From the NCBI GenBank assembly GCA_014763545.1, contig JACXVD010000015.1:1-47363 (forward strand): a stretch of 47,363 bases of DNA, read 5' to 3'. The notes under the pieces were generated by a model. The model saw only the letters and a program-made list of their open reading frames with translations, searched no databases and was not told the DNA's origin. Each line of letters starts with the position of its first letter. Positions within the stretch are counted from its first letter, which is position 1. Source of the stretch: Sphingomonadales bacterium. GTDB taxonomy: Bacteria; Pseudomonadota; Alphaproteobacteria; Sphingomonadales; Sphingomonadaceae. Below, piece after piece: positions 17,789-39,284 of the stretch. A program made the translations under genes and the position numbers.

Positions 17789-18796
17789 ATGAGCGAAATA
17801 TCCGACGCGATCGGCGATGGGGTGGACGAAGGCCATGCCTGCCTCAATTGTGGCACCGCACTGGTGGGCGACTATTGCCACGCCTGCGGGCAGACGGCGC
17901 ATATCCACCGCTCGATCGGCGCTTTCCTGCATGACCTGATGCATGGTGCGCTGCATTTCGAAGGCAAGATCTGGCATACGCTGCCGTTGCTGGTGTGGCA
18001 GCCGGGCCAGCTGACCCGCCGCTATATCGACGGGGAGCGCGCACGGTTCGTGTCGCCGATGGCGTTGTTCCTGTTCGTCGTCTTCCTGATGTTCGCATCG
18101 TTCCAGCTGGCGGGCATCTCTACCCCGGTGAATATCCAGCGCCCGGCCGAGGCGGAGAGCAATTTTTCCGCGGCCGAGGGCGAGTTCGAAGCGCGTATCG
18201 CATCGGCCCGGGCAAAGCTCGACGCGATGGCGGCAGGCGACCCCGCCCGCGCCGCCGCCGAAACGGATCTGCAGGACGCGCAGGATGGCCTGGCTGCCTT
18301 CCGCAAGACCAGGAGCTTCATGCTGGGTGAGGGCAACACCATGTCGCTCAAGCCGCAGACCGGCGTCGAATGGGTTGACCACGGCCTCGCCAAATGGCGC
18401 GAGCACCCCGAACTGATGCTCTACAAGCTGCAGGCCAATTTCTACAAATTCAGCTGGCTGCTGATCCCGCTGTCGCTGCCCTTCGTCTGGCTGCTCTTCC
18501 TCTGGCGACGCGAGTACGGGCCATACGATCACGCGGTCTTCGTGACCTATTCGCTCAGCTTCGTGACCCTGCTGTTCATCGTCCTCGCCCTGCTTGGGGT
18601 CGCGGGGTTGAGCGGTTCGGGCCTGTTGCTGGCGGGTTGCCTGCTGCCGCTGTGGCACATGCACCGCCAGCTGAAGGGCACCTATGCGCTGGGCAATGTC
18701 TCGGCCCTGTGGCGCGTGGCCGTGCTCGCCCTGTTCATCGGGGTGGTGCTGGTGCTGTTCCTGCAGGTGCTGATCCTGTTGGGGATCATGGGCTAG
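17789..18796 (+). CDS. DUF3667 membrane protein with N-terminal zinc ribbon
   Basis: A 335-residue protein. The N-terminus has two CxxC knuckles, CLNCG and CHACG (about residues 18-36), spaced as a zinc ribbon. This is followed by the DUF3667 signature HRSIGAFLHDLMHGALHFEGKIWHTLPLLVWQPGQLTRRYIDGERARFVSPM. Hydrophobic helices are at about residues 91-110, 225-240 and 250-335 with a coiled, charged loop between (about 120-200). Function is unknown; the family is widespread in sphingomonads and Bacteroidetes. It follows the parA-like gene by 54 bp on the same strand, and ends 16 bp from the convergent glycosyltransferase. Confidence 0.85.
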   Translation: MSEISDAIGDGVDEGHACLNCGTALVGDYCHACGQTAHIHRSIGAFLHDLMHGALHFEGKIWHTLPLLVWQPGQLTRRYIDGERARFVSPMALFLFVVFLMFASFQLAGISTPVNIQRPAEAESNFSAAEGEFEARIASARAKLDAMAAGDPARAAAETDLQDAQDGLAAFRKTRSFMLGEGNTMSLKPQTGVEWVDHGLAKWREHPELMLYKLQANFYKFSWLLIPLSLPFVWLLFLWRREYGPYDHAVFVTYSLSFVTLLFIVLALLGVAGLSGSGLLLAGCLLPLWHMHRQLKGTYALGNVSALWRVAVLALFIGVVLVLFLQVLILLGIMG

Positions 18797-18812: not shown

Positions 18813-19619
18813 CTAGTCCGGGCGGCGCCCCGTCATCGGCCCGCGCAGGGCGCGGTGCAGGGCACGGTGCGGCCAGCGCAAATGCTTGAGCAGGCGGTAT
18901 CCCTGGCCGATCATCCGGTCGCGCGGGGCATAGGGGCGCCCGACCAGCCGCGAGAAGCGATCGACCATATTCGCCGTCTGCCGTTCCTTCAGCCGCCCCG
19001 ACATGGTGATCGATTCGGCATGCAGCCGGTAACAGCTGAGGAATTCGTCGATCACTGCGATCCGCGCACCCGCGCAATGCATCGCCACCAGCAGCCCGGT
19101 ATCCCAGCTCGCGCGATCTTCGGGATCGAAGCCGTCGGTCCGGCGGAAAGCCTCCGCACGGAAGAAGGTGCTCGGCTGGATCTGGACATGCGCGCCGGTC
19201 GCCACCGCCCATTTGTCGAACGGTTCCGACCAGACCTTGCGCAGCACGCCGCCGGCATGGTCGATCGCCAGCGCATGCCCGGTCACCACATCCACCTGCG
19301 GGTGGCGGGCAAAGTAATCGGCGACCTTGGCGAAGGCGCCGGGCAGGAAGGCATCGTCGGAATTGAGGTAGCACCAGATATCGCCGCTGGCGCGGGCGAA
19401 ACCCTTGTTCAGCCCGTCCCCCGGCCCCGAATCCTTTTCGAACACGCGGATCATGCGCGGGTCGGCCACGGCCTCGATCAGGTCGCGACTGCCGTCGGTC
19501 GAGCCGGGATCGCAGACGATATATTCGATCTCCACACCCTGCTGCGACAGCACTGAATCCATCGCTTCGCCCAGCCATTTCGCCTGGTTGAACGAGATCG
19601 TGACGACACTGAATTTCAT
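18813..19619 (-). CDS. family 2 glycosyltransferase
   Basis: A 268-residue GT-A-fold enzyme. It opens MKFSVVTISFNQAKWLGEAMDSVL, with the nucleotide-binding ICCDPGSTDG-like strand (YIVCDPGSTDGS), the SGPGDGLNKGFARASGDI segment, and the metal-binding CYLNSDDAFLP (DxD equivalent). It probably adds a sugar to the lipid-linked repeat unit in the cytoplasm; donor and acceptor cannot be told. It is the last gene of the operon and overlaps the acetyltransferase gene by four bases (ATGA). AGGTGGGG precedes the ATG. Confidence 0.92.
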   Translation of the reverse strand: MKFSVVTISFNQAKWLGEAMDSVLSQQGVEIEYIVCDPGSTDGSRDLIEAVADPRMIRVFEKDSGPGDGLNKGFARASGDIWCYLNSDDAFLPGAFAKVADYFARHPQVDVVTGHALAIDHAGGVLRKVWSEPFDKWAVATGAHVQIQPSTFFRAEAFRRTDGFDPEDRASWDTGLLVAMHCAGARIAVIDEFLSCYRLHAESITMSGRLKERQTANMVDRFSRLVGRPYAPRDRMIGQGYRLLKHLRWPHRALHRALRGPMTGRRPD

Positions 19620-20224
19620 GCGTCTTGCCCCACCTGCCCAGCCGGGGGCGAGACCGCAGGATGCGCCCGTTCACCCAGCTGGCGCGCGGGATTGCCGCCC
19701 CACACCGTCCACGGCGGGAGATCCTTGACCGCGACGCCGCGCGCAGCCAGCACCGCACCTCCGCCCAGCGTCACGCCCGGTGCGACGAAGGCTTCCGCCG
19801 CCACCCAACAGTCGTCACCCAGCACGATCGGCCGCGCGACCAGCTGGAATTCGGGATCGCGGTGATCGTGATCGCCCCCGCACAGGAAGGCGCGCTGCGA
19901 CACGATCACCCGCTTGCCGATCGTGACCGGTGCCATGTTGTAGCATTCGACGCCGGGGCCGAGCGTCGAGCCATCGGCCATGTCGAGATGACGCGGTAGC
20001 CAGATCTGCGCGCTGGCATAAACCTTGGTCAGCGACCCCATGCGCGCCCCGAACAGGCGCAGCAGGAACTTGCGCCAGGCCCAGCCGAAAGGCGGCGGGA
20101 CAAGCCGTGCGAACAGCAGCCAGACGAGCGACCACGCGGCCCGCTCGATCCGGTTGGCAAAGGAGAAGCTCGGCCCGCCGGTGAGCAGCGGGCGCGTGCG
20201 GCTTGCATCCAGCGGTTCGCTCAT
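19616..20224 (-). CDS. WcaF-like left-handed beta-helix O-acetyltransferase
   Basis: A 202-residue protein with an amphipathic N-terminus (WSLVWLLFARLVPPP, likely membrane-associated) and hexapeptide repeats forming a left-handed beta helix, including TIGKRVIVSQRAFLCGGDHDHR, a histidine-containing loop like those of the colanic acid acetyltransferase WcaF, and a C-terminal DCWVAAEAFVAPGVTLGGGAV and VWGGNPAR. WcaF-like enzymes transfer acetyl from acetyl-CoA to a sugar. ATG at 20224 has GAGGG upstream; the longer reading is not protein-like. Coupled to both neighbours: 10 bases after the unknown gene, and a 4-base overlap with the GT2 gene. Confidence 0.88.
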   Translation of the reverse strand: MSEPLDASRTRPLLTGGPSFSFANRIERAAWSLVWLLFARLVPPPFGWAWRKFLLRLFGARMGSLTKVYASAQIWLPRHLDMADGSTLGPGVECYNMAPVTIGKRVIVSQRAFLCGGDHDHRDPEFQLVARPIVLGDDCWVAAEAFVAPGVTLGGGAVLAARGVAVKDLPPWTVWGGNPARQLGERAHPAVSPPAGQVGQDA

Positions 20225-20234
20225 TGCCGCGCCC

Positions 20235-21389
20235 TCAGGAAACCTTGTCCAGTGCAACCGACCGCAGCAGCAGCCTGGTTCCGGCGCTGTTGGCATTACG
20301 CTTCGCCAGCAACGCCAGCGACCCCGCCTTGCAATCCTGCGGCACCACCAGGCTCCACTCGCCGGTCGGGCCGGAACCCGAGCCGCTGCGCGCGAGCGGT
20401 AGCCGGCCCTTGCCGGCACAGCTTACCGACCAGTCGAAACCCTGCGCATTGCCGCGCTCTGCCTCGCCCGCGACCTTGAGCCGGTAGCGACCTGGGGCGA
20501 GCAACACCGCCTGGCTGATCACGTTGCCGGCGCGTTCGTTGGCCTGGTCGATCGCCAACCCGCCGCCCTCGAGCGCCTCGACCGTAGCGGGCGATTGCCC
20601 GGCCAGCCGCCATTCGCCGCCGATCGCATGCGCTTCGGGATCGAACTGGGCAAAGGTGCCGTCATATATCGCGCCCTGGAAATCGCCCGGCTTCGTCAAG
20701 GTGTCGCGCCACAGCACCAGCCCCTGGTCGCTCGCGTCGGCGGCGATGAAACCCTGCGCCATGTCGTCGACCGCATCGCGCAACCAGCTGCCATCGCCGG
20801 CGTCGAACTTGCGCACCAGCGCAGCGCGCAGGCCCATCGCCTCGGCATTCGCCGGGGGCTGGCGGAAATAGCGGCTCCACCAATCGAGCTTGCCCCGCTT
20901 GGCGGCGCGGTCGGCCAATGCATCGATGCCGCCGGGCAGGGCCAACAGGCGGTCGGCATAGGGGCCGGCGATGCCCGCATCCTGCGTCCGCCCCAGCGCG
21001 TCGATCCGCTGGGCGGCGATTTCGGGCTGGTTTTCGCGCAGCGCCGCTTCGACCAGCATCACATTGGTGGTGACGTCGCGCCAGCCGAGCGCGGAGGAAA
21101 GGTTCAGCGCCTCCAGCCGGCGGTTGGCGTCGGTGCCGCTGGCCGCCAGGGTGAGGCCGAATTGCTCATAGGGCATCGCGGCGACGGCGCGGCGGGCAAA
21201 TTGCAGCGCGAGCGGGATCTGCTTGGTTTGCAAGGCCGCCAGCGAGGCATTGCGCTGCGCCGCCACGTCCCACGGCGCGAACACGGCGCCGACCAGCGGC
21301 GTGCGCGATGCAAGCGCGCTGGGCCCGAACAGGCCGAGCGCAGCAATCCCGGCCAGCCCGGAAAGGATCAGGGCCGGCCCCTTGCGCAT
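20235..21389 (-). CDS. unknown protein of the exopolysaccharide operon (helical repeat plus C-terminal beta domain)
   Basis: A 384-residue protein I do not recognise. It has an N-terminal membrane anchor or signal (about residues 5-28, ALILSGLAGIAALGLFGPSAL), then an Ala-rich helical region with TPR-like spacing (about 40-230: SLAALQTKQIPLALQFARRA, VMLVEAALRENQPEIAAQRI). The C-terminal third (about 240-384) looks beta-rich, with VLLAPGRYRLKVAGEAE and a two-cysteine segment (VSCAGKG...PQDCKAG), resembling carbohydrate-binding jelly rolls. It would face the periplasm. Its ATG overlaps the stop of the Wzc-like gene (TGATG), so it is made together with the chain-length kinase. A role in polymer export or length control is inferred from position only. 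Confidence 0.7.
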   Translation of the reverse strand: MRKGPALILSGLAGIAALGLFGPSALASRTPLVGAVFAPWDVAAQRNASLAALQTKQIPLALQFARRAVAAMPYEQFGLTLAASGTDANRRLEALNLSSALGWRDVTTNVMLVEAALRENQPEIAAQRIDALGRTQDAGIAGPYADRLLALPGGIDALADRAAKRGKLDWWSRYFRQPPANAEAMGLRAALVRKFDAGDGSWLRDAVDDMAQGFIAADASDQGLVLWRDTLTKPGDFQGAIYDGTFAQFDPEAHAIGGEWRLAGQSPATVEALEGGGLAIDQANERAGNVISQAVLLAPGRYRLKVAGEAERGNAQGFDWSVSCAGKGRLPLARSGSGSGPTGEWSLVVPQDCKAGSLALLAKRNANSAGTRLLLRSVALDKVS

Positions 21390-23557
21390 CAGGTCGCGTC
21401 CCGACCGTAGGAGTAGTAATAGCCGTATTCGTAGCCGTAGCCCGACTGTTTCGGATCGAACTTGTTGAGCACCGCGCCATCGATATGGATATCGTTGGCC
21501 CGCAGGCGACGGATGGCCGCCTGCGCCCCGCCATGGGTCGCGCGGCCGGCCTCGGTCACGAAGATCAGATGTTCGATCCGCTGGGCGAGCAGGATCGTAT
21601 CCGCGAGGCCCAGCACCGGGGGACCATCGAAGATCACCACGTCATAGGCCGCCATGGCCGCATCGCGGAATTCCATGAAGCTGGCGCTCGACAGCAGTTC
21701 CGGCACCGACGGCGGCAGCGGACCGGCAGGGATCAGGTCGAGCCCGGCAGAGTTGGTCTGCACCGCATCGCGCCAGTCGATCTGCCGGGTGAGGATGTTG
21801 GTGAGGCCGATTTCGCGGCTCACGCCCTGGATGTGGTGCTGCGAAGGACGCCGAAGGTCGGCGTCGACCAGCAGCACCTTCTTGCCTTCGCGGACATAGC
21901 TGCGGCCCACGCCATAAGCGACCAGGCTCTTGCCTTCGGACTGCTGGCTCGAGGTGACGAGCATGTTGCGCAGCCCCTCGGTCGACAGCAGGCCAAGCGA
22001 AGTCCTGAGCGCAGCGAAGCTTTCCGACACGCTCGACTTGGGGTTTTCCAGCTCTTCGACGATCGTCTCGTCCGCGTCGAGCTTGGGCACGCTGCCCAGG
22101 AACGGCAGGCCGAGGCGCTCGGTCACATCGTCCGGGGTGCGGGTGGCATCGTGGAGGATTTCCTTCGCGATGATATAGGCCGCAGCCAGGAAGAGGCCCG
22201 CAATCAGGCCCAGCAGGAAGTTGATCATCGGACGCGGGCGGATCGGCCCGCCCGGGGTCATGGCGCGGTCGACGATCGAGATATTGTTGGTCGACACGCC
22301 GGCCGAGGCGCTCACTTCCTTGTAACGCTGCAGCAGCGCATCATACATCGCGCGGTTGGTCGAGGCTTCGCGCGCAAGGATGTTGTACTGCACGCGTTCG
22401 GACTGTTCGACCTCGGTTCCCGACCGCAGGCTGTTGACCTGCGCTTCGAGACGGTCCTCGTTACGGCGAGCGGCTTCAAACTGCTGGCGCAGCGAGCCGC
22501 GCACATCGGCCACGGCTCGGTTGATCTGGGCGTCGATCCCCTCGAGGCGGCGGCGATATTCCTGCATCACCGGATGGTCGGATTTGTAGCGTTCGCTATC
22601 GCGCGCCATATCGGCGGCGACCGAAGCCCGCTGCTGCTGGAGCGACTGGATAAAGCCACTGTTCTGCACCTGCGGGATCGACATCGCGCTGCCGCCCTGG
22701 GCCACGCGATAGGCTTCTTCCGCGGCGATCCGCTCTGTCCGCGCCTGGTTGAGCGCGCTGTTGACGCTGACCAGGTTGGTCACCACCAGCGACGAACTGC
22801 TGCCCGCCGTGCCATCGGCCTGTTCGGGCTGGAGATCGACCAGCCCGATCTTGCGGGCATAGGCGACCTGCGCCTGCTCGCTCTGCTCGAGGCGGTCCTT
22901 GGCCAGTGCCAGCTGCTGTTCGAGATACTGCCGCGCATAGGCCGAACTGTCGAACTTGCGCTGCAAATTCGCAGTGATGAAGGCATCGAGATAGGCATTG
23001 GCAATGGTCGCCGCATAGGATGCGTCGGGGCTGGTGAAGGTCACCTGCACCACACGGCTGTAGCGCGGCAATTCGGCGCTGAGATTGCCGATCAGCGAAT
23101 CGACGATCCGCGCCTTGCGCGTTTCGGCCATGGTCTTGCCCGCCGCCGGTGCTTGCGGCGCAGGAATCTGCATCCGCTCGAAATAGGTGTTGTCCTTGGT
23201 CAGATTGAGCCGGTCGACGACCTTTTCGGCGGTGCCGCGGCTCAGCAGCACGTCGAGCTGGGTCTGCAGGAAGCGTTCCGTATCCCAGTCGGGGCGCGGA
23301 TCGGCGCTGCTGCCCGTGTCGAGCACTTCGGCCGCCTGACTGTCGATCTGCAGCGTGGCAGTCGCCTGGTAGATCGGGGTGGTGGTCAGCGAATAGGCGA
23401 TCGCCAGCGCCACCGCGACGGCGACAATGCCCGCCGCGATGAAGCGATTGCGATAGACCGCCGCGAAAATCCTGCGGAAATCGATATTCAGCGAAGGCAT
23501 CGCTGCTTCGTAGTTATAGCCTTCGTTGTTCGCCGGAATGGATGCCGGTTGGTTCAC
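21389..23557 (-). CDS. Wzc-like polysaccharide co-polymerase with BY-kinase domain
   Basis: A 722-residue inner-membrane protein. Two membrane segments (about residues 37-56 and 445-465) flank a Wzz-type periplasmic region with coiled coils and the GNVR-like segment near YNILAREASTNRAMYD. The cytoplasmic tyrosine autokinase has Walker A SSQQSEGKS, Walker A' LLVDADLRRP, and Walker B VVIFDGPP, and ends in a tyrosine-rich tail, GYGYEYGYYYSYG, with seven tyrosines. Phosphorylation of this tail controls oligomer cycling and polymer length in the family. GTG start with AAGGGAATCC upstream. It is 42 bp after the Wza-like gene and overlaps the next gene. No Wzb-type phosphatase is visible in the window. 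Confidence 0.93.
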   Translation of the reverse strand: MNQPASIPANNEGYNYEAAMPSLNIDFRRIFAAVYRNRFIAAGIVAVAVALAIAYSLTTTPIYQATATLQIDSQAAEVLDTGSSADPRPDWDTERFLQTQLDVLLSRGTAEKVVDRLNLTKDNTYFERMQIPAPQAPAAGKTMAETRKARIVDSLIGNLSAELPRYSRVVQVTFTSPDASYAATIANAYLDAFITANLQRKFDSSAYARQYLEQQLALAKDRLEQSEQAQVAYARKIGLVDLQPEQADGTAGSSSSLVVTNLVSVNSALNQARTERIAAEEAYRVAQGGSAMSIPQVQNSGFIQSLQQQRASVAADMARDSERYKSDHPVMQEYRRRLEGIDAQINRAVADVRGSLRQQFEAARRNEDRLEAQVNSLRSGTEVEQSERVQYNILAREASTNRAMYDALLQRYKEVSASAGVSTNNISIVDRAMTPGGPIRPRPMINFLLGLIAGLFLAAAYIIAKEILHDATRTPDDVTERLGLPFLGSVPKLDADETIVEELENPKSSVSESFAALRTSLGLLSTEGLRNMLVTSSQQSEGKSLVAYGVGRSYVREGKKVLLVDADLRRPSQHHIQGVSREIGLTNILTRQIDWRDAVQTNSAGLDLIPAGPLPPSVPELLSSASFMEFRDAAMAAYDVVIFDGPPVLGLADTILLAQRIEHLIFVTEAGRATHGGAQAAIRRLRANDIHIDGAVLNKFDPKQSGYGYEYGYYYSYGRDAT

Positions 23558-23599: not shown

Positions 23600-24295
23600 T
23601 CAGAAACTGCGGCTGAAGACCGCGAAGGTCGAGAACAACGGCGCGGTCTGCAGCACGTCGCGATAAACCTGCTTGAGCTTGTCGGTGCCGACAATGACCT
23701 GGTCGCCGGGAAGGATTTCGATGTCCGGATCGATCCCTGCGTTGATCCGCCCGAGGTCGAACAGCCCGCCCACACGCTCACCATTGACGCGGCGGAACAC
23801 GACGACCTGGTTGTATTTGGCGACCTGCGACGGCCCGCGCGCCAGCGCGACCGCGTCGACCAGCGAGATGCGGCTGGGCATTTCGAACACGCCCGGCTGC
23901 ATGACCGCGCCGGTCACCGTGACCTGGCGCAGCGAGGTTTCGGTAATCGCGACTGTCACGCTGGGATCGACCAGATAACGCGCGCCGAAGCGACGCTCCA
24001 GATCGCGGGCAAATTCATTCGCAGTCAGCCCCGCAGCCGGCACGGCACCCAGCAGCGGAACCTGGATATTGCCATCGTTGTCGACAATCGCCCGGGCGAC
24101 CGAGAGATCCGGTTCGCGGAAGACGTTGATCGAAAGCTGGTCGTTCGGCCCGATCACCTGGCGGCGGGGAGCGACGACATTGCCTTCCGGGATCAGCTCA
24201 TAAGCGGCTTGCCCGCTGGGCAGGACCGGGCGCGGGCCGGTGCTGCAACCGGCAAGCAGGCCTGCAAGAGCCAGAATAGCGATAAATTTCTTCAC
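23600..24295 (-). CDS. Wza-like outer-membrane polysaccharide export lipoprotein
   Basis: A 231-residue exporter. The lipoprotein signal KKFIAILALAGLLAGC (lipobox LAGC) is followed by the polysaccharide-export domain (VIGPNDQLSINVFREPDLS, VPLLGAVPAAGLTANEFARDLERRF) and a SLBB domain (VTVTGAVMQPGVFEMP, DAVALARGP). The protein is shorter than E. coli Wza and lacks its C-terminal outer-membrane helix, so a separate outer-membrane part or a different topology is likely. I chose the GTG at 24295 because it gives a normal signal peptide and has GGGGG nine bases upstream. An ATG at 24334 would add 13 residues (MFNQHLTLRGSPK) and has no visible ribosome binding site. Confidence 0.9.
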   Translation of the reverse strand: MKKFIAILALAGLLAGCSTGPRPVLPSGQAAYELIPEGNVVAPRRQVIGPNDQLSINVFREPDLSVARAIVDNDGNIQVPLLGAVPAAGLTANEFARDLERRFGARYLVDPSVTVAITETSLRQVTVTGAVMQPGVFEMPSRISLVDAVALARGPSQVAKYNQVVVFRRVNGERVGGLFDLGRINAGIDPDIEILPGDQVIVGTDKLKQVYRDVLQTAPLFSTFAVFSRSF

Positions 24296-24351
24296 CTTGG
24301 GAGACCCCCGGAGTGTAAGGTGTTGGTTGAACATGGCTGATAGACCGCTTT

Positions 24352-25656
24352 TCACCGGTGAGGCAATCGCCTTCCGGCAGTGTAGGTTGCAGCAGTGCAC
24401 ACAGCATAGACGGCCATCAACGCGCCCGTGCGCAACGGGAAATCGAAAAAGCTGTGCGTCATCAACAGGACGAGCACGCCCCATGCCCCCCATGCGAGAG
24501 CGGGCGCAGCGGCGGTGAACATCCGCCAGCCCAGCAGGGCAACCGCGACCACGCCGGCAAACGCCGTCAGCAATCCCGCCAGCCCGCCTTCGAGCAGCAG
24601 CTGCAGATAATCATTATGCGCCGCCACGATATAGCGGGCCTGGATCATGTCGAGATCCTCGAACGCCATATAGACCGGCACGAAGCTGCCATAACCCGAA
24701 CCCCACGGCCACATCGCGCGCGCCGCCACCAGCGTGTCGCGCGCCATCGTCAGCCGCTGGTCGTCGCCCACCTCGCCGAAACGTTCGAAGATCGCGGAAA
24801 AGGCGGGGACATAGAACAGCGCCAGCGCCCCCACGACAGCCGCCGCGCCCAGCGTCAGCGCCTGGCGGGGCGATGGGCGCCAGACCACCAGCAGCGCGAC
24901 CAGCGTCGCCGGCGCCGCCAGCGTAATGCCAAAGCGCGAGGTGGTGGCGATCACCGACAACGCCAGCACGACCAGCGCCGCCGACAGCACCAGCCGGTAA
25001 CGCCGCAACTGGCCCGGCAGCACCAGCGCCGACAGCAGCAGCATGCCCGAAATGATCAAATCGGCATGATGGTTGCGGTTGGTGAACAAGCCGATCGAAT
25101 CCCCGGCATGTGCGGTGGTGTAGAGCGCCAGCCCGCCTGCCAGCCGCTGCGCGATCCCCAGCAGCGCACTGACCAGCGCGAACCCGGCCAGGATCGCCAG
25201 CAGGCGGCGGGTGTCCGTCCAGCCCAGACGGCACACCGCGACATGCAGGACGAGCGGCGAGAACAGCGTGCCCAGTGTCATCGCAGCCGCCCCCGGATCG
25301 AGCGCCAGCGGCCGCCATCCGGGCGACAGGCCCGCCCCGTCCAGCGCCGCCGCCGCCAGATCGCGCCCCGGAAGCGCAGTCCACAGCGAGGGCGGCAGGG
25401 GCACGAGCTGCAACAATGCCAGCCCCAGCAACGCCAGCGCCAGCTTGGCCGTCCAGGCCAGCGGCATCCGCTTGGGCGAAACGAGCACCAGATAAAGCAC
25501 CGGCAGCGCAGCGAGCGCAATCACCAGCTGGTTGAGCGGGCGCGATGTCCCCCCCACGACCAGCGAGACAAGCATCAGCGCCGCCGAGGCGATGAACAGC
25601 GCACTGCCCTTCTCCTCCACGACCGGCCCATCCGTCGCTGCCGTTGTGTGCTTCAC
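24352..25656 (-). CDS. O-antigen ligase/polymerase family protein (Wzy-like)
   Basis: A 434-residue membrane protein with about 10-12 helices and the Wzy_C/O-antigen ligase core near [20 protein letters not shown] and the large periplasmic segment containing [22 protein letters not shown] and [13 protein letters not shown]. The H-N-x-x-L-Q pattern is typical of the superfamily. In this operon it most likely polymerises lipid-linked repeat units, as Wzy does, but ligase activity cannot be excluded from sequence. Its start overlaps the fcl stop by four bases (ATGA). Confidence 0.9.
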
Positions 25657-26600
25657 CCGTCCATCCCCCGTCCCGCGTTTCCTGCGACGAAATCGGCATA
25701 GACCGCTTCGATGCCTTCGCGAAGCCCGATCGTCGGTCGCCAGCCCATGGCGAGCAGCTTGCCGCTGTCCATCAGCTTGCGCGGGGTACCATCGGGCTTG
25801 CTCGGATCGGTCAGGATCTCGCCTTCCAGCCCGACCACCCGCATGACCATTTCGGCCAGCTCGTAGATCGTCACATCGCTGGAGGACCCGACATTGACAT
25901 GCGGTTCGTCGGAATAGGTCTTGAGCAGGAAGACCAGCGCGTCGGCCAGATCGTCGACATGCATGAATTCGCGTCGCGGCGATCCCGTGCCCCAGATCGG
26001 CAGGTCGGCCTCGCCGCGGGCCTTCGCCTCATGCGCCTTGCGGATCAAAGCGGGCAGCACGTGGCTGTTGGCCAGGTCGTAATTGTCGCCGGGGCCATAG
26101 AGGTTGGTCGGCATGGCAGAGATGAAGTCATGCCCATGCTGGCGGCGATAGGCCTGGCACAGCTTGATCCCCGCGATCTTGGCGATTGCGTACCATTCGT
26201 TGGTCGGTTCGAGCGGGCCGGTGAGCAGGCTTTCCTCGACGATCGGCTGCTCGGCGAATTTGGGGTAGATGCAGGACGAGCCGAGGAACAGCAGCTTTTC
26301 GGTATCCTGCCGATGCGCCGCCTCGATCACATTCGCCTCGATCATGAGGTTGTCGTAGAGGAAATCGGCCGGATAGGTGTCGTTGGCGTGGATCCCGCCG
26401 ACGCGCGCGGCGGCGACCACCACCGCATCGGGCTTCTCGCGCGCGAACCATCCGCGCACTGCGGCCTGGTCCATCAAGTCGAGCGTATCGCGCCCGGCGG
26501 TCAACACCTCGCAATCCTCGCGCCCCAGCCGGCGGACGAGCGCCGAGCCGACCATCCCGCGATGCCCGGCGATGAATATCCGTTTCCCGGCGAGTTCCAT
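25653..26600 (-). CDS. fcl: GDP-L-fucose synthase (GMER)
   Basis: A 315-residue bifunctional epimerase/reductase that turns GDP-4-keto-6-deoxymannose into GDP-L-fucose with NADPH. Visible are the NADP motif GHRGMVGSA (residues 12-20), the catalytic SSCIYP, and the [11 protein letters not shown] (YxxxK) motif, with [18 protein letters not shown] near the sugar site. The length fits Fcl/WcaG. The ATG at 26600 is preceded by AGGGAAG. With gmd in the same operon it completes GDP-fucose synthesis. It starts two bases after the GT4 gene's stop and overlaps the Wzy-like gene. Confidence 0.96.
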
Positions 26601-26602
26601 GG

Positions 26603-27796
26603 TCACGCTTCCCTGCTTTCCAACTGCCCGCGCCCGGCGAGGACGCAATCGACAATCGCGCGATATTCGCGCGCAAATTCCTTCTGCCGCCGGCTGAAAT
26701 CGGCGCGTGCGGCGGCGGCATGGCTGCTTTCGGCAACCGGATCCCATTCGGACAGCGCCCGGCGCATGGCATCGGCCAGCTCTTCGGGACTGTCGGGCGC
26801 AAAATAATCCGCGCGGGGCGGCGCCTGTTCGCGGTGGACCGGGATATCGGACAGGATCACTCGCTTGCCCAGCGTCCGCGCTTCCTCGACGGTGCTGCTC
26901 CAGCCTTCGAAGCGCGACGGATTGATCAGCGCCACACAGTCGCGCATCAGTGCCAGCAGGTGGCTGCGCGGCACCAGCCCGACGAGGCGGAAGTCGTCTG
27001 CCACCCCGCATTCTTCGATCAGCGCATGGACGCGGTCGATATGGGCAGGATCGAACTTGTTGGCGACATTGCCACTGGCAAGCACCAGCACCGGCTCGCC
27101 CGCAGCGCGCAGCAGCCCCAGCGCGCGAATTGCGGCGGCATGGTTCTTGTGCGCCCAGAACTGGTTGGGCAGGAAGAAGAACGGGCCCGAAAAGCCGTAG
27201 GTTTCCTCGAGCTCGGCACGGCTGACGGCGCCCTCCACCGCCATATCGGCCACGAAATGGAGCACATGTGCCTTGTCCGCCGCCTGCGGCAGAAAGGCGG
27301 CGAGATTGCCACGCGCATCCTCGCTGGAAACGATCATCGCATCGCTTTGCTGCGCCATCCGGCGGAAGGCCCGGTCGCGCCGCGTGCGCACCTCTTCGGT
27401 GTAGAGTTCGGGCAGCACGAGATGCTGGAAATCGGGGATCCACGCGATCGAGGGAACTGCACTGCCGCGCCCCAGCGTGGTCCGGTGCGACAGCAGCGCG
27501 ATCCCGTGCCGCTTCAACCAGCCGGCGAACAGGGGATCGTGGCCGATCAGTCGCTTGAGTGCGACGCCGGCGGTCTTCGCCAGGCCGCGACCCTCGACAT
27601 AGGGGCACGCCAGCACCGTAACGCCGGTATCGGCGAATTCGCCGCGCGCATCCTCCACCATGTCCGGTGGCACCAGCAGGACCGGCTCAATGCCGGTTTC
27701 CGGTGCCGTGGCGAAGGCGAGGAACAGGTTGCGCAGGTAATTGACCCCGCCCATCCACGCCCGCTTGCGATCGGAAAAGATGAAGCCCACGCGCAT
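26603..27796 (-). CDS. GT4-like glycosyltransferase
   Basis: A 397-residue GT-B-fold transferase. The C-terminal half has [74 protein letters not shown]; the [11 protein letters not shown] segment is the E-x7-E nucleotide-sugar site of family 4, and the pattern resembles bacterial mannosyl- and fucosyltransferase groups. The N-terminal half is typical acceptor-side. The ATG at 27796 overlaps the epimerase stop by one base. A fucose or mannose donor is plausible because of gmd and fcl but is not proven. Confidence 0.9.
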
Positions 27797-29560: not shown

Positions 29561-30129
29561 GCTCGGTTGTCCTCCCGGATGATGCGGGCCGGATTGCCGG
29601 CCACTACGGCATAGGCCGGCACGTCGCGCGTCACGATGCTGCCGCAACCGATCACCGCGCCTTCGCCGATAGTGACCCCGGCAAGCACGATGGTGTTGAA
29701 CCCGATCCACGCCTTGTCGCCGATCCGCACCGGCGCCATGCGCACGTTCGACCAGTCCTTGCGCCCTTCGAAATACTCGCTGACGTCGGTCGCGCGCTCT
29801 TCCCAGCGCAAACCGTGGGAATGATGGTCGATGATGGTGCAGCCCCACGAAATGAGCACGTCATCGCCAATCTCGATTTCCTGCGCACAGGTCAGCGATG
29901 ATGCGCCGATGAACGTGTTGCGCCCGATGCGCACGACCGCCGTGGGCCGTTCGGCCTTGATCGTCCCTTCGAAAATCGAACCTTCGCCAATTTCCAGCCG
30001 TGCAGGGGGCCGGTTGCCGATACCCTGCCAATTGACCTTGGTCCGCGCAGCGACGGTCGCATCGCAGCGTGCGAGCACACGCTTGCGGGCACGATCGTCG
30101 CGAAGCTGGCGCAGGAACTTGCGGATCAT
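29557..30129 (-). CDS. left-handed beta-helix acyltransferase (maltose/galactoside acetyltransferase-like)
   Basis: A 190-residue hexapeptide-repeat protein: [56 protein letters not shown] (the HxxH loop carries the catalytic histidine), [49 protein letters not shown]. It is probably a sugar O-acetyltransferase. It is the second such enzyme in the operon, besides the one at 19616, so the polymer may be acylated at two positions. It overlaps the flippase stop and the methyltransferase start, four bases each. Confidence 0.9.
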
Positions 30130-31487
30130 CGCGTCGGCCTCAGATTCTTGAACATGATGATGCCCAGCGGGATCGCGGTGAACAGAACGTAGCAGACGAT
30201 CGTGATCCAGATCACCGACCATAGCCCGAGCTGGCCCACGAGCACCAGCTTAAGCGTCAGCGCCACGATTCCCATGATGATCGAGCAGATCACCTGCGGT
30301 CGCACGATGTGGGCACCGTTGAGATAGACGGTCGTTGGCACCGCGAGAGCTTCGATGCATTTCCACACCACGAAACCGACCAGCAAGGCCCCGGTCACGG
30401 GCACGGCATGGCCGAGCCAGGCGGTCACAATGGTGTCGCTGAGCAGGGCAATCGCGAGCGAGACGACCAAAACCGACCCCACTGCCAGCCCCAGCGTCCA
30501 CATCAGCGTGCGACGAATCCAGGCGTGGTCGCCGCGCCGGATCGCTTCGCTATAGGCAGGCCAGAACGGCGCGAGGGTGATGGTCAGCAGCATCGTCGAA
30601 ACCGAAAACAGCCGCTCGTATACGGCATAGTGCCCGGCCACCACCGGTGAAAAACTATGCGCCACGATCAGCGCATCGAGCCGGTAGGTCACCGCGGCAA
30701 TCGCCTGCAGCAGGAAGAAGCCCCCGCCAAGGCGCAGGATGGTGCGGACCATCGCCGGGTCGAGCTCGCTCAGCCGCGGCCACAGGTCGCGGCGCTGGAA
30801 CAGGAAGAAGGTGGTGAAATTGAGCAGCATCGCCAGCTGCGGGCCGCCGAACAGGGCGAGCACCATCCACGGCACCCCGGCATCAAGGTGGATCGCCGTG
30901 ATCACCCCTGCCAGCGAGATGAAGCTGCCCAGGCCCAGCCAGGCATTGGCCTGATATCCCTGCTGCAACCCCATCTGCGTTTTCGAGGCAAGCGCCAGCG
31001 GCACCGCACAGGCCAGCATGGCGAAGAATGCCATCGCCGCCGGGGCCGCCTCGCTGCGGCCCAGCGGGTCCGACAGGTTGAACGCGGCGGCCCAATCGAC
31101 AAACATCGGCGATGTGGCCGCGAACAGGCCCAGCAGCGCACCGATCACCAGCTGCGCGGAAAAGCCGCTGGCGATGACCCGCCGGGTTTCACCGGCGTCG
31201 TCGCTCCCGGTGGAGGAGGCAACCAGCGTCAGCACCCCGTTGCCGATCCCGAAATCGGCAAAGGTCATCAGCGCGCCGATCGAGCTGAGCATCATCCACA
31301 TGCCGAACCGTTCGGGCCCGAGATGTTCGCTGGCCAGCGGCACGGTGACCAGCAGCACCAGAAGATTGCCGAACCGTGCGACCAGCGACACCGCCGATGT
31401 CGCAGCCGCCCGGCGCAGGCGCTGCGTTCCCCGGTCGTCCGAGGAAAGGAAGGTCCTGATCCGCCGTTTCATGGCCAGTGCCATCAT
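30126..31487 (-). CDS. Wzx-like polysaccharide flippase (MATE/MVF superfamily)
   Basis: A 453-residue membrane protein with about 12-14 helices, containing [47 protein letters not shown] near the N-terminus, the typical start of Wzx/RfbX-type flippases (the L-G-x-x-x-F-G-x-W region). It would flip undecaprenyl-linked repeat units to the periplasm. Two starts are possible, ATG 31487 or ATG 31472; neither has a strong ribosome binding site. It follows gmd by 47 bases. Confidence 0.9.
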
Positions 31488-31534
31488 GCCGTCCGGTCTT
31501 GTCCGGAGACGGGCCGCATGACCCGCCGCCAGCT

Positions 31535-32623
31535 TCAGGCCCCCTTGCCGATGGGGGCTTCGCGCATCACCTCGAGATCGGCCAGCACCATTTCGCGCGC
31601 CAGTTCGCGCGGGGAGGTTTCGTGGACCCAGCCGAGCTTTTCCTTGGCCTTGGTCGGGTCGCCCAGCAGCAGTTCCACCTCGGTCGGGCGGAAATAGCGC
31701 GGATCGACCTCGACCAGCACCTTGCCGGTCGCCTGGCAATAACCCTTCTCGTCGATCCCCTCGCCGCGGAATTCGACCGGGACACCCGCATCTTCGAACG
31801 CCCAGCGCACGAATTCGCGCACTTCGGTGGTGACACCGGTGGCGAGCACGAAATCGTCGGGCTGGTCCTGCTGCAGCATCATCCACATGCCGCGGACATA
31901 TTCCTTGGCATGGCCCCAGTCGCGCTGCGCGTTGAGGTTGCCGAGAAAGAGCCGTTCCTGCCGCCCGAGCTTGATCGCCGCGGCGGCGCGGGTGATCTTG
32001 CGGGTTACGAAGGTTTCGCCGCGCAGCGGGCTCTCGTGATTGAACAGGATGCCGTTGCAGGCATACATGCCATAGGCTTCGCGGTAGTTGACCGTGATCC
32101 AGTAGCCATAGAGCTTGGCCGCGGCATAGGGGCTGCGCGGATAGAACGGCGTGGTCTCGCGCTGCGGCACTTCCTGCACCAGCCCGTAAAGCTCCGAGGT
32201 CGATGCCTGGTAGAAGCGGCTGTGCTGCTCCAGCCCGAGAATGCGAATCGCCTCGAGGATGCGCAGCGTGCCGATCGCGTCGGCATTGGCGGTATATTCG
32301 GGCGTTTCGAAACTGACCTGCACGTGGCTCTGCGCTGCAAGGTTGTAGATTTCGTGCGGGCGCGTGTCCTGGATGATGCGGATCAGGTTCGTCGAATCCG
32401 TCATGTCGCCATAGTGCAGGTGGAAACGCTGCCCTTCGATATGCGGATCCTGGTAGATATCCTCGATTCGGCCGGTGTTGAAGGACGAGGAACGCCGCTT
32501 GATCCCGTGGACCTCGTACCCCTTGTCGAGCAGGAGCTGGGCGAGATAGGCGCCGTCCTGCCCGGTTATGCCGGTGACCAGCGCACGTTTGATCTCACCA
32601 CTACTCGCTCCGTTATCGGCCAT
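31535..32623 (-). CDS. gmd: GDP-mannose 4,6-dehydratase
   Basis: A 362-residue NADP-dependent dehydratase, first step from GDP-mannose to GDP-L-fucose (or GDP-rhamnose/perosamine). It has [12 protein letters not shown] (NADP motif), [12 protein letters not shown], the catalytic TSELYG, and [10 protein letters not shown] (YxxxK). The PEVLLGDP-like C-terminus ([22 protein letters not shown]) is typical of Gmd. With fcl downstream, the product is most likely GDP-L-fucose. It heads the polysaccharide operon, with a candidate promoter 39-66 bp upstream of its start. Confidence 0.96.
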
Positions 32624-32661
32624 CGAATACCCATCCTCTAATGCTGCAATTGCGAAGAGGG

Positions 32662-32689
32662 GATGTAGCAAAATCGACCGCCCCGACAA
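32662..32689 (-). promoter_or_regulatory. candidate promoter of the exopolysaccharide operon
   Basis: On the minus strand TTGTCG (32689-32684), 16 bp, TACATC (32667-32662). It lies in the 83-bp gap between the nucleotidyltransferase-like gene and gmd. The match is weaker than at rpmJ or rpoZ, so read-through from upstream genes may also contribute. Confidence 0.35.
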
Positions 32690-32706
32690 GGCGTTTTGCC
32701 GATTGC

Positions 32707-33951
32707 TTATCCCCGGCCCGATCCCGACCGCGCCGGATCGAGCCAATCGCCGAGTTCGCTGGCACGGCGAGCGGTCGCCTGCGCCTCTCCTGTGCGCAGC
32801 TCCTCCAGCGTTTCCCCGACGCGCCTGGCGAGCCACGAAAGATAGCTTTCACGCTCGCCTTCTTCCGCGCCGTGGGGCGCGACCGGGCGACGCTGGCCGG
32901 ACAGCCGACCGACGGCGCGCGAGGCAAGCCCTGGCAGTCCGCCTTCGTGCCAGCCTGCGCCCAGGCTGCCGACCAGCGCGGCGCCCTTGCGCAGGTCGAT
33001 GCTCTGCACCAGCAGGTCTTCGCCATCGCGCAGCATGGCGGGCGGCACTGCGATCGGGCAGCCCGATTGTTCGAGCAGGCCGGGCCTGCGCCAGTAATCG
33101 ACCAGCGCAATCACAATCGCCGCGCCGCGCGCCCAACCTTCCGCCTGCGCCGCCTGCCACAGGTCGGGCCAGTCGATCTCTGCCCCTTGCAGGAGATAAT
33201 CGATATCCGGCAACAGCAGGGGCCCGGCATCGAGGCGGTGGCTGTAGACCGCATGGACGACGAGATGCGCCAGCATGTCCTGCGCACGCGGGCAGTGAAT
33301 CGGCGAATCGCCGGGCGATGCCACCGCATTGCTGCGCAGGCGCGCATCGTGGCTGGGCGGCACGAACCATTCCATCGAGCCGGGCGGCTCCCACGCGGTG
33401 TGGTGCAGCTCGAATGCGGTGTTGTTGGCCGAGATGATCGGCGGCAGGTGCTTGGCCTGCGCAAAGGTCGCAGGATCGGGTTCGGGCTCGGTCGGGTCGG
33501 GCCGGTAATGCGCGGCGCGCAACAGGCGATAGGCATCGAACAGCCGCTCGCGCTCGACCAGCAGGTCGATATCGCGCATCGGCCGCTCGGCCGGGTCGGG
33601 ATAGGCATGCCAGGCAAGGCAGGCGCCCTTCAGCGCGAGTGGTTCGATCCCGCCCCGGCGCAGCACGCCCAGCGCCGCCACCAGATCGTGCCGCTGGCGC
33701 AGCGCGACCAGCGCCGATTCGCGATAGGCAACGGCCCAGGCGTCGCGCACCTCGTCGGGCAGGTCGACGCTCAGCTCGCCGCGCGCCAGCCGCGCGTGCA
33801 GGTGCGGCTGCACGCGGTGCGACGCCGCCAGGCGGTTCATCGCCCGCCAGTCGTCATCCCCCAGATTGTCCAGATATGCGCCCTCGCTCCAGCGATGGCC
33901 GAGCAGGGCGAGGAGCCCGCGCCGCCATCGGGAATGGTGGGGCGTGGGCAA
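32707..33951 (-). CDS. nucleotidyltransferase-like protein (NTP_transf_5 type)
   Basis: A 414-residue protein with the nucleotidyltransferase core [28 protein letters not shown] (about residues 105-132), where D-I-D is the metal-binding aspartate pair, followed by a predominantly helical region with [25 protein letters not shown] and many tryptophans. This is the layout of PF14907-type uncharacterised nucleotidyltransferases found in polysaccharide clusters. Reaction is unknown. The gene is 4 bases after lptA and 83 bases before gmd, so it may be co-transcribed with the lpt genes. The last stretch is Arg/Ala-rich. Confidence 0.8.
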
Positions 33952-33955
33952 GGCG

Positions 33956-34531
33956 TCAGCCCTGCGGGACGGAGAAGCTGCCCGTCACCCGGCCGCCGCT
34001 GCTGCTGGTGCTGCCACTGGTCGTGCCGGTGACCGAGGACGATCCCGAGGCCCGACCGTCAACGCTGGAGATACCGCTCTTGAGGTCGATCACCAGCCGC
34101 CCGCCGTTGAGCGTGTCGGTCCCCCGGCGCAGGCGCACATTGCCGGCCATGGTGATCACGCGGCGGTTGAAATCATACACCGCGACATCGCCGCTGGCGC
34201 TTTCGTTGCCGCGGGTGACCACGACCCCGCCGGTGGCGGTGATGCGCTGGATCTTCAGCGAACCGGCATCGGTATAATTGACCAGCGTGCGCGCCGAGCG
34301 GACCCTGAGCCCGGCCTGCGAAATATCGACATTGCCCGACAGCAGCACGCGGTTCTGCTTGTCCTGCAATTCGATGCGGTCGGCGGCATAGTTTACCGGC
34401 GCATTCGAATCATGCGCGGCGATCGCCTGCGCATTGAGCTGGATCCCCGCCAGCGCGGCACAGCCCAGGGCAAATCCGCCCAGGCCCCAGCGGGTGGCGA
34501 CGGCGGCGAGCGAAGGTTTCGTGTTCGTCAT
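33956..34531 (-). CDS. lptA: LPS transport periplasmic protein LptA
   Basis: A 191-residue OstA/LptA-type protein. After a signal region (GGFALGCAALAGIQLNAQA) come the characteristic beta-taco repeats: ADRIELQDKQNRVLLSGNVDISQAGLRVRSARTLVNYTD, ITATGGVVVTRGNESASGDVAVYDFNRRVITMAGNVRLRRG. LptA bridges LptC and LptD and carries lipopolysaccharide across the periplasm. The C-terminal tail is a Ser/Gly/Thr low-complexity stretch (SGSSSVTGTTSGSTSSSGG) not seen in the E. coli protein. It overlaps lptC by four bases (ATGA). Confidence 0.92.
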   Translation of the reverse strand: MTNTKPSLAAVATRWGLGGFALGCAALAGIQLNAQAIAAHDSNAPVNYAADRIELQDKQNRVLLSGNVDISQAGLRVRSARTLVNYTDAGSLKIQRITATGGVVVTRGNESASGDVAVYDFNRRVITMAGNVRLRRGTDTLNGGRLVIDLKSGISSVDGRASGSSSVTGTTSGSTSSSGGRVTGSFSVPQG

Positions 34532-35196
34532 TGCGGCATCCTGAGTTTGCCCGGCACCATGCTGAGCCTCGCGTTTCCGTCAAGGGTCACGGTGCGTCCA
34601 TCCAGATCGGCATAGATCCGGTCGGCCCTGAAAGTTCCCGCGGGAATCGAACCTTCGACCCCGCCCTCGCCAGCCAGCTTGTGCGTTTGGAGATTGATCG
34701 ACACATCGCTCGCCGTCATCGCATAGCCATCGGCGGCGGTGACCTGCAACGGGCCGATGACCGAGAAGACCTGCTGGTCGATGTCATACGTCCCCTTGGC
34801 CGCCGTCAGGCGCGCCGGGCCGTCAGACAGCAGCAGGCGGGCGACCAGGTCGCTCATCCGCACGATCCCTTCCTTGCCCGAATTCTGTACCGCCTCGCCC
34901 GCGCTGAGCGAGAAGGGCCGCCCTTCATCGTCTTCGCCGCGGTACATCGCATTGTCGACCCGCAGCCGGTCCTTGACGACGGCCACCTTGTTGCGGTCGA
35001 GCAGGAAGCTGACCTCGCCGCGCGGGCTGAGCGGGGTAATCACCATCAGCGCCGCCAGCACGCCCACCGCCATCGGCAGCACGCGGGCGAGGATATGCAC
35101 GATCTTGTCATGCGTGCCGCCCGGCGCAGCGGCATGGCGCCGCGCATTGCGCAGTTCCTTCGCTTGCTCGGTCTCGATCCGCCTGCTCAGGGTCAT
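34528..35196 (-). CDS. lptC: LPS export protein LptC
   Basis: A 222-residue bitopic protein. One membrane helix (about 39-57, LPMAVGVLAALMVITPLS) and a periplasmic beta domain with FLLDRNKVAVVKDRLRVDNAMYRGEDDEGRPFSLSAGEAVQ and LTAAKGTYDIDQQVFSVIGPLQV. The pairing with LptA and the shared beta-jelly-roll rhythm support LptC, which receives LPS from LptB2FG. It follows rnd by 25 bases and overlaps lptA by four bases. Confidence 0.9.
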   Translation of the reverse strand: MTLSRRIETEQAKELRNARRHAAAPGGTHDKIVHILARVLPMAVGVLAALMVITPLSPRGEVSFLLDRNKVAVVKDRLRVDNAMYRGEDDEGRPFSLSAGEAVQNSGKEGIVRMSDLVARLLLSDGPARLTAAKGTYDIDQQVFSVIGPLQVTAADGYAMTASDVSINLQTHKLAGEGGVEGSIPAGTFRADRIYADLDGRTVTLDGNARLSMVPGKLRMPQ

Positions 35197-35221
35197 GGTC
35201 GGTAAACTCGCCTGCCGCCGC

Positions 35222-35839
35222 TTACTCGTGGCTGAAGATGTCGCGATCCGCCCAGCCGGCAATGTCGAGCCGCGCGCGGGTGGGCAGGAAATCGAAACAG
35301 GCCTGCGCCATTTCCATCCGCCCTTCGCGTTCGAGCCGCTCGATCAGCACGTCGCGCATGCGGTGGAGGAAGCGCACGTCGGAGGCGGCATAATCGCGCT
35401 GTGCCTCGCTCAGCGTGGCGGCGCCCCAGTCGCTCGACTGCTGCTGCTTCGAAATCGTTTCGCCCAGCAGTTCCTCGACCAGGTTCTTCAGGCCGTGCCG
35501 GTCGGTGTAGGTGCGCACCAGCTTGCTGGCGATCTTGGTGCAGAACACCGGCGCGGCGACCACGCCGAGGTAATATTCGATCGCCGCCAGGTCGAAGCGG
35601 GCGAAATGATACAGCTTGATCCGCGCGGGATCGGCCAGCACCGCCTTCAGATTGGGCGCCGCGTAATCGCTGCCCACGGCGAAGCGAACGAGATGCTCGT
35701 CGCCCTGCCCGTCGCTGATCTGCACCACGCACAGCCGGTCGCGCGCGGTGACCAGCCCCATGGTTTCGGTATCGACCGCCACCGGCCCGGGCGCGAGCAC
35801 GCCGGCGGGCAAATCCTCTTCGTGAAAATACACTGCCAT
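35222..35839 (-). CDS. rnd: ribonuclease D-like 3'-5' exonuclease (short form)
   Basis: A 205-residue DEDDy exonuclease: DTETMGL (motif I, D and E), HFARFDLAAIE (motif II), and YAASDV (motif III, Y...D). The protein ends after the exonuclease domain, without the HRDC domains of E. coli RNase D (about 375 residues), which is the usual short alphaproteobacterial form. It acts in tRNA or small-RNA 3' processing (family knowledge). The ATG at 35839 is 79 bp from the divergent ung start. It heads the rnd-lptC-lptA run. Confidence 0.88.
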   Translation of the reverse strand: MAVYFHEEDLPAGVLAPGPVAVDTETMGLVTARDRLCVVQISDGQGDEHLVRFAVGSDYAAPNLKAVLADPARIKLYHFARFDLAAIEYYLGVVAAPVFCTKIASKLVRTYTDRHGLKNLVEELLGETISKQQQSSDWGAATLSEAQRDYAASDVRFLHRMRDVLIERLEREGRMEMAQACFDFLPTRARLDIAGWADRDIFSHE

Positions 35840-38504: not shown

Positions 38505-39257
38505 TCAGCGCGGCGTTCGCGGATATTCGCCTGAAACCACCAGCCCCAGCGCCAGGCCGCGCACCGCCGCGCTGGTGCGGTCGGATACCTGCATCTTGGC
38601 AAACAGGCGCTGCAGATAGACATCGACCGAGGATGCGGTGATCCCCAGTGCCTGCGCGATCACGGCGTTGCTCTTGCCCTCGCTCACCAGTTGCAGCACC
38701 TCGGTCTCGCGCGGCGACAGCTGCGGGCGCAATTCGGCAAATGGCTGCGCGAGGCGGACATAGCGGCGGAAAGAAACCCGCGCGCAGGTTTCCACCTTCA
38801 GGCGGATATCGGGGGTAAACACCACGTCCGGTTCGGACCGGTCGATGGCGACGAAGCCGCAGCGCGAGAAAGGGCCGAAGGTCGCCACCGCGATCCCGCG
38901 TCCCATGCCGAATTCCTCCAGCCGATCGAGATAGGCCTGCTGGGCAGGTGTGAGTTCGCCGGGCGCGATATCCTCCGGCCAGCGAAAGGCTGATTGGCGA
39001 GTCAGCCCGATCAGCGGCAGCGGATCGTCCAGATAGCCGCCAGCGCGGTAGAATTCCGCCCATTCGTCGGGGAAGCCGATATTGGTCAATACCCGACCGA
39101 TCCGCGGATCGGCCACGACCGGGGCGAGAAAATAGGCGGCGTGGAAGCCGATCGCAGCCAGCGCCGCCATCAATTCGCGGCGCAGGGCGTGAATATCGCC
39201 CGCGCGGTTGATCCGCTCCAGCCCGTCCCAGAAATCGCGTGTCGCATCCTGTGCCAT
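38505..39257 (-). CDS. LuxR-type quorum-sensing regulator (solo)
   Basis: A 250-residue regulator. The N-terminal autoinducer-binding domain has the expected W/Y/D/P/W signature: DEWAEFYRAGGYLDDPLPLIG and RWPED, plus GMGRGIAV near the conserved glycine. The C-terminal GerE helix-turn-helix is LSPRETEVLQLVSEGKSNAVIAQALGI. These residues suggest acyl-homoserine lactone binding. No LuxI-type synthase lies in the window, so it looks like a solo. GGAAGGGGGAACC precedes the ATG at 39257. It is between gltD and pfkB, same strand, with inverted repeats on both sides. Confidence 0.9.
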   Translation of the reverse strand: MAQDATRDFWDGLERINRAGDIHALRRELMAALAAIGFHAAYFLAPVVADPRIGRVLTNIGFPDEWAEFYRAGGYLDDPLPLIGLTRQSAFRWPEDIAPGELTPAQQAYLDRLEEFGMGRGIAVATFGPFSRCGFVAIDRSEPDVVFTPDIRLKVETCARVSFRRYVRLAQPFAELRPQLSPRETEVLQLVSEGKSNAVIAQALGITASSVDVYLQRLFAKMQVSDRTSAAVRGLALGLVVSGEYPRTPR

Positions 39258-39284
39258 GCCGGTTCCCCCTTCCAAAGGCGGCAT

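Follow-up and report, generated by a model that had tools for sequence, protein, structure and literature searches.

The window, i.e., the whole stretch of 47,363 nucleotides analyzed in this study, carries a run of polysaccharide genes on its minus strand. These encode a GDP-mannose 4,6-dehydratase (gmd, 31535..32836, Pfam), a Wzx-type flippase (Polysacc_synt of Pfam, 30126..31886), an NAD-dependent epimerase (25653..26807, Pfam match at 77-307 of the stretch), a Wzy of the O-antigen ligase/polymerase family (24352..25656, Pfam Wzy_C), a Wza-like export lipoprotein (23600..24493, Poly_export and SLBB matches of Pfam), a one-piece Wzc acting as polysaccharide co-polymerase and tyrosine autokinase (21389..23557, Wzz, GNVR, and AAA_31 of Pfam, and NCBIfam), an unnamed protein of 384 aa, a WcaF-like hexapeptide acetyltransferase (19616..20224, Hexapep and WcaF-type matches of Pfam and NCBIfam), and a GT2 glycosyltransferase (18813..19619, Pfam). 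On its predicted gene content, this is a Wzx/Wzy polysaccharide cluster. The epimerase is called GDP-fucose-synthase-like because gmd lies in the same cluster, and the true start of the wza-like ORF is probably near 24334, as judged from an LAGC lipobox. An uncharacterized NTP_transf_5 nucleotidyltransferase gene (32707-33951, minus strand) lies at the upstream end of the cluster, LptA/LptD_N-like and LptC-like genes (the latter just below the cut-off) at 33956-35262 (minus strand) are directly upstream, and a gene for a LuxR-type regulator with an autoinducer-binding domain is found at 38505-39284 (minus strand), also upstream. Beside the cluster end, a DUF3667 membrane protein with a weak N-terminal zinc-ribbon match is encoded on the opposite strand (17789-18796, plus strand).

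The gene encoding the 384-aa protein occupies 20235..21389 on the minus strand, with its stop codon at 20235-20237, as supported by the ORF, family alignments, and a structural model; the plus-strand reading of the same interval is interrupted by a stop. Its ATG shares one base with the wzc stop codon (TGATG) and 10 bases separate its own stop from the acetyltransferase ATG at 20224, confirming on the minus strand the overlap and spacing described in an earlier, sequence-only reading of this DNA. That reading could name no family for the protein, and our searches agreed with it. The Pfam search gave zero matches, NCBIfam gave one chance-level match (OrgA, E 0.16), and the PDB sequence search gave two (E 0.06 and 0.34); the OrgA match and the Nucleoprotein match of the PDB search (E 0.06) were rejected as chance. 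The PDB sequence search with a profile of the C-terminal beta domain also gave chance-level matches only, and AspH, the top Foldseek row for the whole model, was discarded (TM-scores <0.3). The structure matches also included viral proteins, with numerous phage tail proteins among them. Across the Pfam, NCBIfam, PDB-sequence, and structure comparisons, we found no confident match to an enzyme or regulator, and hence none to one unrelated to export. The Wzz and GNVR domains, both present in the neighboring Wzc, were absent from the 384-aa protein in the Pfam search, and by this domain content it is not a Wzz-type co-polymerase. No published description of the family was found in the open-access literature searched. 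The family is widespread yet unnamed, and is recognized by no Pfam or NCBIfam model.

An AlphaFold model of the whole protein, built on seven sequences, had a mean pLDDT of 82.5 and a pTM of 0.68, and consisted of a helix at residues 4-29 (pLDDT 53-58), helices at residues 31-231, and strands at residues 268-383. This layout, with cysteines at positions 324 and 353, bears out the helical region and the beta-rich C-terminus with two cysteines expected earlier. The low-confidence N-terminal helix (21303..21380, minus strand) coincides with the single hydrophobic stretch of the protein and may be a signal-anchor or a signal peptide. The membrane anchor proposed previously was borne out as a hydrophobic stretch, which in the window protein could also be a cleaved signal peptide. 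In three relatives fused to Wzy, the stretch would be internal, judging from the fused ORFs.

Residues 31-231 (20697..21299, minus strand) are predicted to form a TPR-type alpha-solenoid with conserved R104, D130, R134, and W170. R104 was conserved in 74 of 75 aligned sequences, and W260 in 72. The solenoid modelled alone had a pLDDT of 83 and was matched by TPR chains at Z values of about 10-11.6. Because these values are below the threshold of 13 advised by the structure tool for repeats, the TPR assignment rests on the sequence matches of relatives: TPR models of Pfam matched relatives of the window protein (TPR_16 in 4 of 14, best E 1.6e-6), and the family profile matched consensus TPR structures. 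By these matches, members of the family are TPR proteins. TIGR02917 (XrtA/PEP-CTERM TPR protein PrsT) left the window protein unmatched and matched 5 of 14 relatives (best E 4e-10, no cut-off given), which probably reflects shared TPR sequence only.

Residues 237-383 (20241..20681, minus strand) are predicted to fold as a CBM4-like beta-sandwich. For the predicted model, the closest solved structure was CBM4-2 (Z 12.8, rmsd 2.7, 140 residues aligned), followed by CBM16, CBM61, and Cry protoxin domains, with an accessory secretory protein also listed; the best solved matches were mostly sugar-binding modules. Additionally, the start motif of one member (L167) resembles the NGDF...W of CBM_4_9 (PF02018). 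The family differs from CBM4 and CBM_4_9 in that none of 50 members had a Pfam CBM match, that the hhalign match of the family to CBM_4_9 was weak (probability 27.8, E 6e-4, with just 4 CBM rows from 2 genomes), and that it has a conserved cysteine pair. The conservation analysis revealed no clearly exposed sugar-binding aromatic that is conserved, and similarity of fold does not establish a function. The chances that the sandwich binds the growing chain are about even.

The codons of the two cysteines lie at 20418..20420 (Cys324) and 20331..20333 (Cys353) on the minus strand. These residues were conserved in 72 and 73 of the 75 aligned sequences, respectively, and both were present in all 72 aligned members having the sandwich. 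The three shorter rows had gaps at both columns in two cases and a lone cysteine in L028. The alignment makes a C324-C353 disulfide likely. A second cysteine pair, located in the solenoid, was complete in 16 members and represented by a single cysteine in 1 member. This pattern of cysteines fits disulfides, and therefore the periplasm. Members consisting of the TPR part without the sandwich were also identified (L068:8379-9092, L069:8304-9038, L127:5577-6314, and L028:9296-10192).

Relatives were found by a single-sequence search in 15 of 98 genomes, the source genome included. The same type of search found no relative in the named genome collection, whereas six were recovered there with a profile built from close relatives. 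The A1 profile, made from 14 members, was searched against 298 sampled genomes of the family of the window, taken as Sphingomonadaceae on the basis of the named relatives, and matched 231 of them at E <= 1e-3 and 202 strongly (E < 1e-10), the strong cut-offs having been chosen after inspection of the match lists. In a phylum-wide search, a profile of the beta domain (A5) matched 30 of 398 genomes at E <= 1e-4, of which 17 belong to the family of the window, 11 to other families of its class, and 2 to other classes. One of these last two (L175) was matched falsely by the beta profile; it is a protein of 536 aa without any cluster gene around it, which from its sequence we take to be YidC; one genuine relative outside the class thus remained. 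L031 was excluded before counting, as it had none of the cluster genes.

The distribution of the gene followed that of the one-piece wzc. Counting strong matches in the 298 genomes, 198 had both genes, 4 had only the 384-aa gene, 8 had only wzc, and 88 had neither, i.e., 202 genomes with the gene vs. 206 with wzc (Fisher p 2e-60, ignoring phylogeny). When the 8 wzc-only genomes were rechecked, the gene was present in 3 (G281, G198, and G247), where it was probably overlooked since the first look scored few candidates; in G035, the contig ends 2 bases past wzc, and no copy was found beside the strong wzc in G178, G285, G296, or G311. Among the gene-only genomes, G303 had a partial wzc at a contig start and the match in G249 begins at contig base 162; the matches in G203 and G261 were partial, with no wzc within the 16 kb read. 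A pairing with any Wzc-like protein was considered and rejected, because 23 of the 24 genomes with only a weak Wzc match had no strong copy of the gene, and the 24th was G303, whose wzc is cut by the contig end.

Gene order pointed in the same direction. Among 99 copies, 88, including that of the window, directly follow wzc (67 of 74 in an earlier set excluding the window), a fraction that describes recognizable members because the loci were picked from match lists, some genomes twice. The remaining copies are fused to Wzy (3), located beside wzy (3; L028, L079, and L084), located after wzc at a distance (4; L131, L167, L170, and L174), or placed at a contig start (1; L114). In L131 (5934-6593, Bradyrhizobium sp. 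ISRA443), a DnaJ-domain gene separates wzc from the family member. In 48 of the 88, as in the window, the wzc stop shares 1 or 4 bases with an in-frame ATG, GTG, or TTG. Other sphingomonad wzc operons thus do carry the gene.

A link to Wzy was also identified. In three loci (L062:8037-10715, L063:6918-9455, and L065:6879-9440), a single ORF of 845-892 aa encodes Wzy, with the Pfam Wzy_C match in the first half, followed by the whole TPR and CBM4-like protein. In the tree of the 384-aa protein, L065 grouped with L084, a locus where the gene comes immediately after wzy (support 0.975), and L062 and L063, which belong to one genus, formed a separate clade (support 0.997). Two separated lineages therefore gained or retained the join to Wzy; the supports in the Wzy tree (0.66 and 0.19) were too low to tell whether the fusions are independent. 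The gene also adjoins wzy as a separate gene in 13 loci. In an exploratory partial correlation of tree distances (n = 80 loci), the values were 0.32 (0.20 to 0.43) with Wzc and 0.31 (0.10 to 0.46) with Wzy, and a lower value was obtained with Wza (0.13, -0.04 to 0.35). This mirror-tree test did not separate Wzy from Wzc. On the evidence of the fusions, the case for Wzy is no weaker than that for Wzc, and Wzy is likely to be a direct partner of the protein.

A relative in Sphingomonas sanxanigenens, as identified here, is reported to have been deleted previously. According to the available portions of PMC5399355, the operon NX02_02920-02935 comprises ssG (Wzy, 02935), ssD (Wza, 02930), ssC (Wzc, 02925), and 02920, and the sanxan yield was reduced by deletion of this operon "or of each gene"; in those portions, 02920 is given no product name and is absent from Table 1 and the legend of Figure 5. 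The Wzc of L027 has 751 residues, including M1, W54, T76, V469, A488, R489, E490, and G751, and agrees with the published SsC in length and in all eight named residues; therefore, the 412-aa member directly downstream was taken as NX02_02920. It shares its place after a one-piece Wzc with the window protein, and differs in being distant from it in sequence (28%, G058). Polar effects of its deletion are unlikely because 02920 is the last gene of the operon. The loss of yield, a published result contained in one sentence and assigned to the family through our identification of the gene, fits a need for the gene. SpnM/SpnN (GelM/GelN) are accessory proteins of sphingan systems. In the same portions of PMC5399355, spnM and spnN were reported as not found in NX02, a genome that, as identified here, has the 384-aa family, and complementation with foreign Wzc, Wza, or Wzy genes was unsuccessful in the sanxan system. 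In cluster B for surface polysaccharide of Sphingomonas sp. LM7, which includes Wzy (RS19300) and Wzc (RS19310), the available Table 1 of PMC11340318 lists no insertion in the tag after RS19310.

Taken together, the co-occurrence with wzc, the gene order, and the published deletion support the earlier proposal of an additional export or chain-length component, which might act on length, processivity, or export. The 384-aa protein is very probably part of the Wzy/Wzc machine. On balance, we also favor its being a periplasmic TPR and CBM-like subunit of this polymerization and export machine, docking on Wzy/Wzc and contacting the chain. In such an arrangement, the N-terminal hydrophobic segment would anchor the protein at the inner membrane or send it across, the TPR solenoid would dock onto Wzy and Wzc from the periplasmic side, and the disulfide-stabilized CBM4-like sandwich would contact the growing polysaccharide leaving Wzy. 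The sandwich may help to hold or steer the chain into the Wzc/Wza channel, and polymerization, chain length, or export would be affected. The docking partners, the disulfide, the sugar binding, and the effect on chain length are elements that we infer. More tentatively, the protein might be a core subunit of a large Wzx/Wzy branch, namely a trans-acting periplasmic extension of Wzy that grips the nascent chain by its CBM4-like domain and sets processivity during the hand-over to Wzc/Wza; the surface facing the sugar would then be variable and co-evolve with the polymer.

The members without a sandwich, the lack of clearly exposed conserved aromatics, and the occurrence of CBM-like folds in other proteins (e.g., Cry protoxin and the accessory secretory protein) would also suit a pure protein scaffold, whose TPR part would keep Wzy beside Wzc and whose sandwich would be structural or protein-binding without sugar contact. 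However, 72 of the 75 aligned sequences retain the sandwich with its cysteines, and sugar-binding modules prevail among its best solved matches; we consider this scaffold unlikely. It is very improbable that the protein serves the neighboring acetyltransferase or another modifying enzyme by presenting the chain for modification and not for export. A WcaF-type gene does adjoin the family gene in 15 of 75 loci (on either strand, the window included), but no such direct neighbor was found in the other 60 or in 23 of 24 further member loci, nearly all of which keep wzc, and the fusions are to Wzy. WcaF-type enzymes are, in addition, expected to be cytoplasmic.

A cell-surface or secreted lectin, retaining finished capsule outside the synthesis machine, would be in keeping with the CBM4-like fold and with a hydrophobic N-terminus that could be a cleaved signal peptide. 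The window protein, however, has no lipobox, since C324 and C353 are its only cysteines, and in the species where it is fused behind a membrane-embedded Wzy, the protein is tied to the inner membrane; we regard such a lectin as very improbable.

The favored periplasmic subunit of the Wzy/Wzc machine shares features with several known systems. The C-terminal extensions of polymerases and ligases of the Wzy/PglL type (PF11846, Wzy_C_2), which are of TPR nature, are comparable in that three relatives are fused at the Wzy C-terminus, although these fusions score 17.9-18.6 bits, below the cut-off of 28.5, and the window protein is a separate gene product with an added CBM4-like domain. AlgK, a lipoprotein, is a periplasmic TPR scaffold of synthase systems. 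The scaffolds BcsC and PgaA of such systems likewise have a TPR domain in the periplasm, positioned between synthesis at the inner membrane and export, as described in the available parts of PMC12220298 and PMC9603273. By analogy, the 384-aa protein would act in the manner of the synthase-pathway TPR scaffolds (PMC12220298, available part), in the Wzy pathway and with another architecture. In contrast to BcsC, PgaA, and AlgK, it has no outer-membrane barrel, carries the extra CBM4-like domain, and lacks the lipobox; in particular, an AlgK-type lipobox cysteine is absent, with no Cys before residue 324. A sugar-binding-like module at the Wzy/Wzc position offers a testable way into the questions of how Wzy passes the growing chain to Wzc/Wza and how the length of the chain is determined, and the family is relevant to the engineering of gums such as sanxan.

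The Wza-like protein of the window had no Wza_C match, in line with the earlier observation that it lacks the C-terminal outer-membrane helix; this absence is often seen in the short OPX proteins of class 3, according to the available part of PMC9603273, and any tie between it and the 384-aa gene would be speculation. Additionally, plasmid records were searched and 10 matches were obtained, in Bradyrhizobium, Sphingomonas, Novosphingobium, Mesorhizobium, and an unnamed sphingomonad; in the five records examined, the member was annotated as 'hypothetical protein' in four and had no annotation in one.
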